From: Pedobacter borealis DSM 19626
GTDB lineage: Bacteria > Bacteroidota > Bacteroidia > Sphingobacteriales > Sphingobacteriaceae
Reading direction: 5' to 3'
Length of the DNA stretch: 64,000 nt
Assembly: GCF_000708285.2 (NCBI RefSeq)
Contig: NZ_JAUG01000010.1
Location: forward strand, 1 to 64,000
The notes beneath the pieces are model-generated. The model did no database searches. It was not told the origin of the DNA and worked only from the letters and a program-made list of their open reading frames with translations. Both the position numbers and the translations under genes were made by a program. Numbering within the stretch: the first letter of the stretch is position 1; each line of letters begins with the position of its first letter. Shown in pieces: positions 103 through 60,002 of this stretch.

Positions 103-246
103 CCGTCTTAACAGAAAACTTGATTAAAACGCCACAAAATGAGATTTAATAATCGAACTCAGGTTACTATTAATGGCTGGGTCTCATAGCATAATTTCGC
201 TACGCTCTGCAACCGTAAATAGTGCCTACCTCCCTTGCCATTTAAA

Positions 247-320
247 CCTGATCGTAGTGGTTCCGATCCTTTACCGATAAATTGGCACTAAACTAGCATC
301 GGAAGTAGCGGAGAGCAGGG
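247..320 (+). repeat. Structured dispersed repeat, copy A
   Basis: The outer arms CCTG (247-250) and CAGG (316-319) enclose the blocks GTAGTGG and GTAGCGGAGAG. Inside these is a perfect 7-bp stem, TTCCGAT (261-267) with ATCGGAA (298-304). The layout matches four other copies at 5940, 20709, 39582 and 59823. The rest of positions 1-502 shows no credible gene. Confidence 0.65.
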
Positions 321-502
321 TTGTCATTAACCCGTGCTGCTGTATCTGCTTTCCAAAAAAAAATGATCACTTTCATAATTTGCTCAAATAAGCTTTTTTG
401 GGAAAAATTTAATTGCCTATTGTAAATGATTAATTCGTATAAAAACAAAAAAGCTTTCCTGTTTCCAGAAAAGCGTTAGAAATTATAATAAAAAGATGTT
501 TC

Positions 503-5864: not shown

Positions 5865-5921
5865 GCGCAGACTTCCGAAGTTTTGCTGGCCCCTGCCCTT
5901 GGGAACTTCGGAAGTCTGCGC
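5865..5921. terminator. Perfect 18-bp hairpin downstream of csaA
   Basis: GCGCAGACTTCCGAAGTT (5865-5882) pairs exactly with 5904-5921 around a 21-base loop. It starts one base after the csaA stop codon. No T-run follows. Its inner sequence recurs in the hairpin at 6061-6109, so it may be the end of a small repeat element as well as a transcript end. Confidence 0.55.
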
Positions 5922-5939
5922 TCAGGTCTTGCTAAATAG

Positions 5940-6002
5940 CCCTGATTGAAGTGAAAAGACCGCAAGCGAGGCACGAGTGCGGACTTGCAACGGAAAGCAG
6001 GA
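5940..6002 (+). repeat. Structured dispersed repeat, copy B
   Basis: The outer arms are CCTG (5941-5944) and CAGG (5998-6001). The conserved blocks are GAAGTGAAAA and GCAACGGAAAG. The inner stem is AAGACCGCA (5956-5964) with TGCGGACTT (5978-5986), eight of nine positions paired. The same layout is seen in copies A, C, D and E. Confidence 0.65.
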
Positions 6003-6060
6003 CTGAAGCAGCCGACAGGCAGTAACATTGCGCTCCAAAACCTAATGAAATTTTCAACTT

Positions 6061-6109
6061 AGACTTCAGAAGTTTACCACGCCCATGGCTACCGAAACTT
6101 CGGAAGTCT
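6061..6109. terminator. Hairpin sharing arms with the 5865 hairpin
   Basis: AGACTTCAGAAGTTT (6061-6075) pairs with AAACTTCGGAAGTCT (6095-6109), with one mismatch, and runs into TTTTT. The arms are the same sequence as in the hairpin at 5865-5921. The two bracket a 249-base segment containing structured repeat copy B. Confidence 0.5.
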
Positions 6110-6127
6110 TTTTGGCCAATATTACCC

Positions 6128-8353: not shown

Positions 8354-8505
8354 GTCGTCATTGCGAGGTACGAAGATAACCGAACGATTGAGCTCATGAA
8401 TACCTTTAAAAAGAACTGCAAAAATGAATAATCTTAATGCACGTGCTACTAACGATCGTTGTAAGATTGCTTCGTCGGCTGAAAAAGCCTTCTCGCAATG
8501 ACGAC
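8354..8505 (-). repeat. GTCATTGCGAG dispersed repeat, long form
   Basis: It is bounded by perfect 14-bp inverted ends, GTCGTCATTGCGAG (8354-8367) and its complement (8492-8505). Read on the minus strand it matches the 96-bp copy at 39322-39417 almost base for base, except for about 54 extra bases near its distal end. It sits between a plus-strand gene end and the 3' end of oxyR. Confidence 0.75.
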
Positions 8506-19320: not shown

Positions 19321-19370
19321 GTTTTAATGGTGCCTGTTCGAACGACACATTAGGTGCATTCAAAGAGATG

Positions 19371-19479
19371 TCGTCATCTCGACTGAAGCGCAGCGGAACG
19401 GAGAGATCTATCTAGACAGATTTAGCTTCGCTGAGCAATCGTGGTTCTCGACTACGCTGCACTCCGCTCGAAATGACGG
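19371..19479. repeat. GTCAT-type intergenic repeat
   Basis: It begins TCGTCATCTCGACTGAAGCG and ends CTCCGCTCGAAATGACGG, the usual GTCAT...ATGAC ends with internal GCGGAACGGAGAG. It is in the spacer between convergent genes. Confidence 0.6.
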
Positions 19480-19487
19480 TTTTCGTT

Positions 19488-20604: not shown

Positions 20605-20708
20605 AACTTGTTGTTTTTATTATAAAACGAAATTAAGGTAAATTGATTTTTAGTGAAAGAAATATTTGTTTTTGAAGCGCAGGTGCAGCAACCAGATCAA
20701 TGTTTGTT

Positions 20709-20765
20709 CCCGTTCTTCGTTATATCCTTTCGCTGCGCTACAGGGATACCACTTCGCCCAGGGCT
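20709..20765 (-). repeat. Structured dispersed repeat, copy E
   Basis: Read on the minus strand: CCCTGGGCGAAGTGG, then stem TATCC (20748-20744), a loop, GGATA (20727-20723), then TAACGAAGAACGGGAAC. The order of outer arm, internal block, stem, internal block and outer arm is as in copies A-D. It lies in the 433-base gene-free spacer 20605-21037, which otherwise holds only the repeat at 20858. Confidence 0.6.
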
Positions 20766-20857
20766 ATGCAGTTAAATCCTGTTCAATTAGGCTCTGCTAA
20801 CAACCCAATCAATTAAACCTGATGGGCAATGTCAATGGAGTTGAGTACTCTGCCGTT

Positions 20858-20955
20858 GTCAGTCTGAGCTTGTCGAAGGCCTTTCTATAGTCAAAAACGA
20901 AAAAACATTTGTCCTTCGACAGGCTCTCCGTAGGAGTCCTTTGGACAGGATGACA
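20858..20955. repeat. GTCAG/ATGAC hairpin repeat interrupted by a 20-nt insert
   Basis: GTCAGTCTGAGCTTGTCGAAGG on the left faces CCTTCGACAGGCT...CAGGATGAC on the right. The same right half is uninterrupted at 25080-25097 and 27027-27047, showing that 20926-20945 is an insertion. Confidence 0.65.
20926..20945 (+). mobile_element. 20-nt double-hairpin insert, copy 1
   Basis: CTCC GTA GGAG followed by TCC TTT GGA: two tiny hairpins. Removing it restores the canonical GACAGGCTCAGGATGAC. A second copy with a compensated stem is at 51867-51886. Confidence 0.55.
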
Positions 20956-21037
20956 ATGTTTTTTGTTTTCTCTTTAACTTAATGACACTACTCGACAGGA
21001 GCAAAATGCTGATTTCTCTGTTGTCTAAATATCGTAA

Positions 21038-36250: not shown

Positions 36251-36700
36251 GTGCGCCCGGCACGGGCGCAAACTCTAGGGTGGAAGTCCCGAACGCGCCT
36301 TGATAGTGGGAAGCGTTAACTTAAGGCAAGGGTGTCCTCTGTGAGGAGGAATCTGAAGGAAGCCGGCGGTAAATCTCCGGCCTGACGAACAGGAAGCGAA
36401 TTAGGCAGTTGGATGTGGGTGAGTTTGCATAACAAAACAAAGCCCTAAACTATCCGAAACATCCTGCTGTATATTCGACAGGTATATGGAGAGAAAGTTT
36501 GCGTTCTTACCCGGGGAGATCTGCCGGGCCGTTGCCGGAGGGAGATGCGCCTCCCGAAGGAACAAGGTTCTGTAGCGATACATAACTGGTCCCGCAGAAG
36601 TCAGCAGAGGCCATAGTACTTTTTTTTTTTTTAGAAAGGAAGGGCTGAACATTAAACGTCCGAGTAGTACTACCGGAAATGGGATTACCGTAAAGAAAGC
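36251..36700 (+). mobile_element. Group II intron fragment, 5' part only
   Basis: It starts with the conserved 5' end GTGCGCCCGG, then CTCTAGGGTGGAAGTCCCG and TTAAGGCAAGGGTGTCCTC, GAAGGAAGCCGGCGG and, near the end, GAAGTCAGCAGAGGCCATAG and GAAGGGCTGAAC. These are domain I-III and early domain IV landmarks of bacterial group II introns. The reverse transcriptase ORF and domains V and VI are missing. The 3' limit is uncertain (about 36660-36750). A run of 13 T (36620-36632) breaks the domain IV region. The intron begins two bases after an intrinsic terminator, the site used by class C introns. Confidence 0.8.
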
Positions 36701-36869: not shown

Positions 36870-38270
36870 TTATTCAATCTCAAATACCTGATGGTATTCG
36901 GGGATAGCCACATGTTTAAAACCTGCATCTTTCAATTTGCTGGCGAAATGTTGCTGTACTTCGTATTCTCCATGTACCAAAAACAGCTGTTTTACCTTAG
37001 CTGGATCCTGACCTGATAAAAAATGCAATAAATCTTCATAGTCGCCATGTGCGCTCATCGATTTTATCGATTGCACTTCGGCCTTAACCTCATATTCATC
37101 GCGGAAAATCTCCACAACTTTTTGTCCGGCAATTAACCTACCCCCAAGCGATTTAGGTTCGCAATAGCCCACCATTAAAATGGTATTTTTCTGGTTGCCA
37201 ATATTGTTCCTGATGTGGTGCTTTACCCTGCCGGCCTCTGCCATGCCTGATGCAGAAATAATTACACATGGCCTGGGATCGGCATTTAAAGCTTTCGATT
37301 CTTCTACACTTTCGATAAAACGCAGGCCTTTAAAACCAAATATATCATGATCAACCTTTAAAGTCTCTTTAACCCCATTATTGTATACCTCAGGGTGGTT
37401 TTTAAGAATTTCAGTCGCTTTTGATGATAAAGGACTATCTACATAGTATAATACATCAGGCAGTTTACCTTTTAACTCAAGCCCATTTAAAGCATAAAGC
37501 AGCTCTTGAGTACGGCCAACGGCAAAGGCAGGAATAATTACCTTGCCCTTTTTTACTTTGCAGGTATTATTAATAATCTCTAAAAGCATGTTTTCGATCG
37601 GATCGAGATCTTTATGTAGCGAATCGCCGTAGGTTGATTCCATTAAGATATAATCGGCCTGATCAAACTGCTGCGGACTTTTTAAAAGCAGATCGCCATA
37701 ACGGCCAACATCGCCAGAAAAGGTAATCCGCGTAGGTTTTCCATCTTCGGTAATGGTAAGATGAACCGCAGCGCTGCCTAAAATGTGACCTGCATCTGTA
37801 AACTTTAATCGGATTCCCGCTTCAATCTCAAAGTCCTCTTCATACTCCACAATCTTCATCTGACTAACCGTTTTGGTAACGTCTTCATCGGTGTACAGTG
37901 GTTCTTCCATTTCTTCGCCTTCGCGCAGATGGCGGTTAGAAAACTCTGCATCCTGCATCTGGATTTTGGCAGAATCCATCATTAAAATGCGGGCCAGATC
38001 CATCGTTGCCGAAGTACAGAAAATTTTACCTTCAAATCCTTCTGCAACCAATTTAGGCAATAAGCCACAATGATCTATATGCGCATGTGATAAAACCAGG
38101 TAAGTAACCTTTTTGGCATCAAAGCCGAAAAGATCATTTAATTTATCGGTAACACGGCCCATTCCCTGGAATAAGCCACAGTCTAATAAAATCTGGGTGC
38201 CGTTTTTTAAGGTAATAAGGTGCTTACTCCCCGTAACAGTACGGGCGGCACCATGAAAAGCAATGTTCAT
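36870..38270 (-). CDS. Metallo-beta-lactamase/beta-CASP ribonuclease
   Basis: A 466-residue enzyme with an MBL domain (H62-x-H64-x-D66-H67 in LSHAHIDHCGLLP), a beta-CASP insert (about 210-330) and a C-terminal RNA-specificity (RMMBL) segment (SIKSMSAHGDYEDLLHFL, LFLVHGEYE). This architecture is that of RNA-processing nucleases such as RNase J relatives and archaeal CPSF-like proteins. It is cytoplasmic and probably acts on RNA. It is not the main RNase J, which is longer. Confidence 0.88.
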   Translation of the reverse strand: MNIAFHGAARTVTGSKHLITLKNGTQILLDCGLFQGMGRVTDKLNDLFGFDAKKVTYLVLSHAHIDHCGLLPKLVAEGFEGKIFCTSATMDLARILMMDSAKIQMQDAEFSNRHLREGEEMEEPLYTDEDVTKTVSQMKIVEYEEDFEIEAGIRLKFTDAGHILGSAAVHLTITEDGKPTRITFSGDVGRYGDLLLKSPQQFDQADYILMESTYGDSLHKDLDPIENMLLEIINNTCKVKKGKVIIPAFAVGRTQELLYALNGLELKGKLPDVLYYVDSPLSSKATEILKNHPEVYNNGVKETLKVDHDIFGFKGLRFIESVEESKALNADPRPCVIISASGMAEAGRVKHHIRNNIGNQKNTILMVGYCEPKSLGGRLIAGQKVVEIFRDEYEVKAEVQSIKSMSAHGDYEDLLHFLSGQDPAKVKQLFLVHGEYEVQQHFASKLKDAGFKHVAIPEYHQVFEIE

Positions 38271-39321: not shown

Positions 39322-39417
39322 TCGTCATTGAGAAGGCTTTTTCAGCCGACGAAGCAATCTTATAACTATCGCCAGTAGCGTGTGCTTTAAGATTGCTTCG
39401 TGCCTCGCAATGACGAC
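39322..39417 (+). repeat. GTCATTGCGAG dispersed repeat, short form
   Basis: TCGTCATTGAGAAGGC at the left and GTGCCTCGCAATGACGA at the right, with inner GACGAAGCAATCTTA and TAAGATTGCTTCGT forming a second inverted pair. It is the same element as 8354-8505, lacking the internal 54-base stretch. Confidence 0.75.
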
Positions 39418-39478
39418 CTATCTATTAGAAGAGCAGCTCTCTACAACTATTTGGGTTTCTTCCCACTTTCTGTTTTAT

Positions 39479-39512
39479 CCCGATGAAGGATCGGAATGTT
39501 CACTCCAATCGG
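39479..39512. other. CCCGAT/ATCGGG hairpin
   Basis: CCCGATGAAGGATCGGAATG faces CACTCCAATCGGG. It lies in the gene-free stretch 39264-39779, which also holds the repeats at 39322 and 39582 and a terminator. Confidence 0.4.
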
Positions 39513-39581
39513 GTCTAGGTGGCCCGTTAGGTGGTGCTATTTTTGATTGGGTGCTTAACTGCACAGTCCTTTGTTTCTAAA

Positions 39582-39648
39582 CCCGGTAGCAGCGGCAGCT
39601 CCTCCCGGGTTTACATCGGGATTTATCGGAGCTATAGCGGATAACGGG
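39582..39648 (+). repeat. Structured dispersed repeat, copy C
   Basis: CCCG (39582-39585) and CGGG (39645-39648) form the outer arms. The blocks are GCAGCGGC and ATAGCGGATAA. The inner stem is AGCTCC (39597-39602) with GGAGCT (39628-39633), perfect. It shares the 3' extension CTG...TTCCCGAAG with copy D. Confidence 0.7.
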
Positions 39649-39749
39649 ACTGCTGTTCCCGAAGCAATACTGAATGTTCATTTCCAAAACAGTAGAGTGA
39701 ACAAAATCTTTAATTCTTATTTTAAGATTACAAAGTCTTTAAAATAAAA

Positions 39750-59636: not shown

Positions 59637-59822
59637 TATGCAAAGCGATTTTCATCATTATTATCATTAAGAAGTTAAGAGCATTAAGTTTTCGTCGTGC
59701 CAATTCCCAGGTTTAGTTATTTCATTGATTTAACGATTACCCTAATTAACAGTAATTTATCTTTCATTTGCACCATGCAGGCAACAAGCCTAGCCAAAAA
59801 CTACCGTGCTTTCTGCATTAAA

Positions 59823-59878
59823 CCCTGATTGAAATGAAAAGCCCACAGCGCAGTGAGGACTTGTAATGAAAAGCAGGG
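59823..59878 (+). repeat. Structured dispersed repeat, copy D
   Basis: CCCTG (59823-59827) and CAGGG (59874-59878) are the outer arms. The blocks are GAAATGAAAA and GTAATGAAAAG. The inner stem AAGCCCAC / GTGAGGACTT is imperfect. It is followed by CTGCAATTCCCGAAG, shared with copy C. It sits in the 377-base spacer between plsC and yicC, which holds no gene. Confidence 0.65.
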
Positions 59879-60002
59879 CTGCAATTCCCGAAGAAACACT
59901 GAACGCTGGTTTTCTAAATATTAACAAATATTCCTTAAAACTGTCATGCGCTGCAATTCTAACGCCCAGCCCATTATTATTTCTCCTTTCGGCTTAAAAC
60001 CC

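Follow-up and report, generated by a model that had tools for sequence, protein, structure and literature searches.

A guide and a distal anti-guide in the Flavo-1 repeats of Pedobacter are compatible with a folded single-stranded DNA element

The structured repeats in a 64,000-nucleotide stretch of Pedobacter DNA (the window, part of the 5.54-Mb genome G000) are established here as members of the Flavo-1 family, and they show a pairing between a guide and an anti-guide that is new here and lies outside the Rfam model. We tentatively favor reading Flavo-1 as a DNA element that acts as a folded single strand, with the build of a transposon end and a REPIN-like arrangement in doublets. In this model the three-nucleotide guide directly preceding the hairpin would pair with an anti-guide that lies about 30 nt further 3' and directly adjoins a YC[A/T]AA end, and a single-strand endonuclease acting in trans (HUH Y1 type or similar) would bind the hairpin and cut at the anti-guide. 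Binding and cutting by such an enzyme may have spread the doublets in the past. A domesticated host element and a true RNA are both serious rivals of this DNA-element reading.

Flavo-1 copies in the window

A sequence-only reading of the window had listed five hairpins, all of which we found in place and on the strands given, with the outer arms, purine-rich blocks and complementary stems it described. A sixth copy (4a below), absent from that list, is the inverted head-to-head partner of copy 4b on the opposite strand, 42 nt away.

234..366, + strand: copy 1 with tail; guide AAA 244-246, hairpin 247-319, anti-guide TTT 350-352, end TTTCCAAA
5928..6048, + strand: copy 2 with tail; guide AGC 5938-5940, hairpin 5941-6001, anti-guide GCT 6032-6034
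20662..20775, - strand: copy 3 with tail; guide AGC 20763-20765, hairpin 20709-20762, anti-guide GCT 20676-20678
39416..39526, - strand: copy 4a; guide AGA 39514-39516, hairpin 39462-39513, anti-guide TCT 39430-39432
39527..39568, no strand: 42-nt linker between the divergent arms 4a and 4b
39569..39696, + strand: copy 4b with tail (39582-39648 in the sequence-only reading); guide AAA 39579-39581, hairpin 39582-39648, anti-guide TTT 39681-39683
59811..59926, + strand: copy 5 with tail; guide AAA 59820-59822, hairpin 59823-59877, anti-guide TTT 59910-59912

Copy 2 is flanked by a CsaA-like gene (tRNA_bind) and a TadA-like deaminase gene, and copy 3 by ybaB/ebfC and a beta-lactamase-fold gene, with a linker and a degenerate partner arm (TAAACCTGAT...) following the latter copy. 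Copy 5 is flanked by an acyltransferase gene and a yicC-like gene; related species retain both arms at this locus (59.8 kb), while the left partner has decayed in G000.

Each copy begins with a 3-nt guide followed by the hairpin, in which a 4-bp outer stem and, beyond one mismatch, a further 2 bp lead to two 3x3 GNA/GNA loops separated by 2 bp and then to a variable apical stem with its loop; the anti-guide and YC[A/T]AA come after about 30 nt more (hairpin-to-anti-guide spacers are 29-32 nt in the window). The purine-rich blocks, described earlier as a symmetric internal loop, do match each other, though they form two loops around one two-base-pair step. Likewise, the CTG said usually to follow the hairpin is present, as the beginning of a 3' tail, conserved and about 30 nt long, that ends, on each window copy, with the complement of the guide triplet and then YC[A/T]AA. 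Sequence common to the copies runs to the end of this tail, with little shared beyond it, and the loops of some copies contain other short repeats.

Flavo-1 RNA (RF01705; Weinberg et al. 2010, PMC2864571) has the same hairpin, internal loops and phylum as the window copies, and its Rfam model, typed as sRNA, spans 76 positions and stops before the tail, without guide/anti-guide pairs or doublets. The comparison with Flavo-1 proposed from the sequence proved apt: all five listed copies match RF01705 (46.6, 36.7, 34.4, 33.4 and 29.0 bits), though only the copy at 5934 (46.6 bits) exceeds the gathering cut-off of 42 bits, the other four scoring 29-36.7. The covariance model that the same reading had proposed was built here from 27 copies including 3' tails (R2); it recovers copies left out of training and gave 97 matches in the fetched loci. 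Since copies 1 and 4b were kept out of the training set yet score 65.6 bits (E 1.9e-11) and 68.3 bits (E 4.7e-12) in 515 kb, a chance match is excluded; copy 4a scores 64.1 bits (E 4.5e-11) with R2. The Rfam model alone finds at least 83 copies in G000 among the 150 scored of 1212 candidates, about 40 of them over the 42-bit cut-off, and we put the total at about 100 copies or more. The complete relative G221 has at least 149 (149 of 150 scored candidates, R2), and these totals are lower bounds, with 150 candidates scored per genome.

Structural covariation, as claimed from the five hairpins, is very strong in the larger set. Across the 97 copies, in an alignment (R2) fitted to its own structure, 93.0% of cells are paired (71.9 when shuffled) and in 345 cells both partners have changed (98±11 in shuffles), with double changes at 14 of 16 pairs and loss of the signal when partners are slid. 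Given these controls (slid and shuffled) and the motifs in fixed columns, an alignment artefact is an unlikely source of this covariation. The covariation is repeated in 24 copies from distant genomes (97.3% of cells paired and 85 double changes versus 27, in a set biased toward good pairing by taking the best match per genome). A wide spread of such repeats in Bacteroidota is also supported. The conserved fold that defines membership of RF01705 (a paired outer stem, two internal loops and an apical stem) is present with 93-97% of cells paired.

Guide and anti-guide pairing

The guide/anti-guide match was first seen by eye, as bases 5' of the hairpin that vary with bases about 30 nt downstream. 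When the tails of 239 distinct copies were scored for the reverse complement of the 3-nt guide followed by two pyrimidines, 221 held a match, compared to 138±6 (maximum 156) with tails shuffled; for guides other than AAA the figures were 84 of 93 versus 49±4. The guide states found were AAA, AGC, AGA, AAG, AAC and GCA, and in distant families all three guide/anti-guide pairs covary, A11-U to G-C being among the changes. In the doublet at 39.5 kb the two arms carry different guides (AGA and AAA), each matched by its own tail.

A diverged subfamily in genomes of the Mucilaginibacter group has, by eye, a longer contact of five bases (GCGTG/CACGC, GCGTT/AACGC and GCATG/CATGC). It is low in copy number, its neighbors resemble rteC, ORF6N and GNAT/DUF1778 toxin-antitoxin genes (loci L298-L308 and L314), and it lies on what look, by eye, like integrated conjugative elements.

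This layout resembles the right ends of IS200/IS605 elements, whose terminal tetranucleotide forms base pairs with a guide lying immediately 5' of the hairpin foot (PMC6006769). Flavo-1 likewise has a hairpin, a guide 5' of its foot and terminal bases with which the guide pairs (the 221 of 239 copies above). Unlike those ends, it has about 30 nt between hairpin and terminal bases, forms inverted doublets rather than left and right ends in the same orientation, and shows neither a transposase gene between such ends nor replication-strand bias. The likeness to REP/BIME/REPIN elements with their TnpA_REP (RAYT) enzymes is also considerable: both are short, intergenic, high-copy hairpins with inverted doublets (the BIME/REPIN of PMC6006769) and tandem arrays, and both have guide bases directly 5' of the hairpin foot (PMC6006769). 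However, Flavo-1 has no GT[AG]G at its 5' foot, a motif also absent from subclass 2.6 and class 3 REPs (PMC6006769), and no linked, cognate tnpA_REP (RAYT) gene, with one exception in genome G037. Further, REPs are species-specific (PMC6006769), whereas Flavo-1 is conserved in sequence across the class and its guide co-varies with its distal end.

The doublets could also be seen as the long inverted repeats of a double-stranded DNA miniature transposon, which happen to hold a hairpin and whose duplex ends would be handled by an ordinary transposase, and their similar outer ends (TTTGG...CCAAA), total length of about 290 bp and frequent tandem arrays agree with this. We consider it highly improbable, as fold and guide/anti-guide pair are separate for each arm, also where the guides of a doublet differ (39.4-39.7 kb), single arms remain structured, no target-site duplication was seen, and the excess of G·U over A·C described below needs selection on one strand.

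RNA or single-stranded DNA

Flavo-1 copies are intergenic, with no clear gene-strand preference. Relative to flanking genes, those in G000 comprise 18 sense, 14 antisense, 15 convergent and 14 divergent placements, and a less biased set of loci comprises 11, 6, 5 and 10, respectively, the sense lean being non-significant. A replication-strand bias was sought in G221 and none was found (69:80). Neighbors less than 600 nt apart in that genome are divergent in 18 cases and convergent in 2 (p=0.0004), and divergent doublets place one arm on each strand.

The core stems of the 239 copies contain 1819 Watson-Crick, 34 G·U and 10 A·C cells (96% Watson-Crick; G·U over A·C, p=0.0004). This excess indicates selection on the fold of one strand and argues against double-stranded palindromes. 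The G·U share is 1.8%, compared to 8.3% in tRNA stems from the same fetched loci (a small sample of 18 tRNAs).

A true structured RNA, as in Rfam, would be a small RNA or UTR element that binds a protein or stabilizes transcripts, its doublets giving each transcription direction a sense hairpin. The covariation, the predominance of G·U over A·C on one strand and the 3x3 GNA/GNA loops, which are expected to be stable in RNA, count in its favor. In Flavobacterium psychrophilum, Flavo-1 hits occur on either strand of transcribed regions, some of them in 5' transcribed regions, but many lie outside transcribed regions (PMC9723704). The latter hits, the lack of a clear gene-strand preference and a G·U share four to five times below that of the tRNAs all weigh against an RNA, and a contact across a one-sided loop of 30 nt would be odd for one. 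An intrinsic terminator was rejected, since no U-run follows the hairpin, and integron attC sites were rejected by eye for want of matching core sites. We regard a true RNA as unlikely. Since there is no clear orientation bias, doublet arms lie on opposite strands, G·U pairs are rare and F. psychrophilum hits are positioned as described, DNA is favored over RNA, and the guide/anti-guide layout also counts toward folded single-stranded DNA. Our data suggest that a strand-specific single-stranded DNA fold fits the pairing and placement better than RNA does, and the RNA label of Flavo-1 is doubtful. The initial description, a folded RNA or hairpin element, therefore stands as to folding, with the choice between RNA and DNA partly resolved toward DNA. 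The study that described Flavo-1 also reported the STAXI motif, for which its authors considered folded single-stranded DNA (PMC2864571); STAXI differs from Flavo-1 in consisting of pseudoknot repeats, of unrelated sequence, adjoining genes for DNA-handling proteins.

Mobility, persistence and candidate enzymes

Tandem units of 270-310 bp differ in number between close relatives. Between csaA and tadA (5.9 kb in the window), about 20 Pedobacter species carry the element, an unusual persistence for REPs that speaks against a simple REP/RAYT account, and it is missing from most species with a short intergenic gap (1-112 bp). Flanking non-coding sequence at this locus is unrecognizable, while fold, guide and tail are retained with compensated pair changes (GT/AC, AT/AT and GC/GC; AAA/TTT versus AGC/GCT). 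Apical stems were replaced wholesale by types present elsewhere in the genomes, suggesting gene conversion as an alternative to point-by-point selection.

Such persistence would be expected of a domesticated single-stranded DNA structure that serves the host, a hairpin that replication or repair exposes and to which a host protein binds (as a priming site or nucleoid organizer), once a mobile doublet and now maintained site by site. Decay of one doublet arm while the other stays, and the presence of Flavo-1 in genomes with no detectable Y1 protein, are also in keeping with it. On the other hand, 14 Pedobacter genomes have no copies under strict filters, making the element dispensable for the genus, gene conversion among copies, as in the exchange of apical stems, could mimic selection, and we know of no binding protein for Flavo-1. 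We judge this host role rather unlikely.

No clean empty site of a recent Flavo-1 insertion was found. A candidate at 20.7 kb was rejected: eight relatives without the element carry there a 327-aa gene absent from G000, so the insertion boundaries are unreadable. This membrane-protein-like gene lies between ybaB and the beta-lactamase-fold gene (window 20634-21036; loci L326-L335), and in G000, G110 and G184 it is missing, with a Flavo-1 element in its place. Gene capture between divergent copies 0.3-9 kb apart was likewise rejected, as these showed no excess of divergent orientation.

The window holds other repeats and a possible intron. ACTTCNGAAGT palindromes stand on both sides of the 5.9 kb copy (about 5865-5925 and 6060-6115); a 150-bp dispersed repeat at 8354-8504, unrelated to Flavo-1, has dozens of counterparts at about 90% identity in related Pedobacter genomes; and two more dispersed repeats (19358-19481 and 20826-20987) are common to several places in relatives. 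Group II intron domains 1-4 give strong Rfam matches (145 and 66 bits) at 36335-36645 on the + strand, and the next large ORF (36870-38270, - strand) encodes a beta-CASP metallohydrolase, with no intron-encoded protein seen there.

Because the layout resembles IS200/IS605 right ends and REPs, we tested Y1 transposases. The Y1 classes, which match NCBIfam models of IS200/IS605 or REP-associated transposases (some below cut-off), showed no excess of Flavo-1 nearby (10 matches in 188 kb, none significant in 107 kb and 6 in 108 kb, versus 13 in 400 kb of sampled DNA). None of four Y1 types in the genus was enriched, each having its own palindromes: GACTTGCGC/AGTCTTAGCG for subclass 2.6-like genes, ACTTCNGAAGT for subclass 2.4-like RAYT genes (1.14 per kb versus a background of 0.01 in the genus), TCCGTAGGAAC and others for an IS200-like class with a YxxNQxxHH motif, and GGTTCGTG...CACGAACC for NPLQ-type genes. 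Our first hypothesis, a REP of RAYT group 5/TnpA_REP subclass 2.6, was rejected, as those genes bear the first of these palindromes, not Flavo-1. The YxxNQxxHH genes (L010, L088-L114) occur in several Pedobacter species, are flanked by short palindromes such as TCCGTAGGA and resemble subclass 1.2, described as having no end structures. Near one Y1 gene (L097), a GATTGNARYGRA match proved to be a 72-bp tandem repeat rather than Flavo-1.

Pedobacter genomes rich in Flavo-1 usually have Y1 genes, and those poor in it seldom do (44 of 48 versus 2 of 14, p=7e-8), but we rejected this co-occurrence as a sign of linkage: it is confounded by phylogeny, because the Flavo-1-poor genomes appear concentrated in one section of the genus, and G005 is an exception to it, with at least 27 Flavo-1 copies and no detectable PF01797 (Y1) protein. 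In G000 no recurring mobile gene was found near Flavo-1 copies, and Y1 loci were not flanked as by left and right ends. The only close linkage to a Y1 gene with duplication is in G037 (contig 25, L150), where two Flavo-1 copies lie downstream of a RAYT-like gene, with a fragment of that gene's 3' end between them. A match to a known transposon end, once raised as a possible explanation of all copies, was not found, in that Flavo-1 flanks none of the Y1 gene types tested in the genus more often than the background rate. As no Y1 class is so flanked, each has its own palindromes and G005 has no Y1 protein, the enzyme step is one that we infer. It is possible, and we suggest it with more reserve than the DNA fold itself, that Flavo-1 is the folded single-stranded end of an unrecognized, class-wide, non-autonomous REPIN-like family in Bacteroidia, its guide co-evolving with the terminal site and served in trans by an unlinked candidate endonuclease.

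Flavo-1 is an abundant Bacteroidota 'RNA' that has been filed as such since 2010 with its function unassigned, and if it is single-stranded DNA, the annotation is wrong in many genomes. The guide/anti-guide pairs offer a direct and cheap test of the single-stranded DNA reading. Even if Flavo-1 is RNA, the extra helix and tail correct the RF01705 family model. If the DNA reading is true, Flavo-1 would be a REPIN-like family conserved in sequence across a class rather than species-specific, which bears on how such elements persist.
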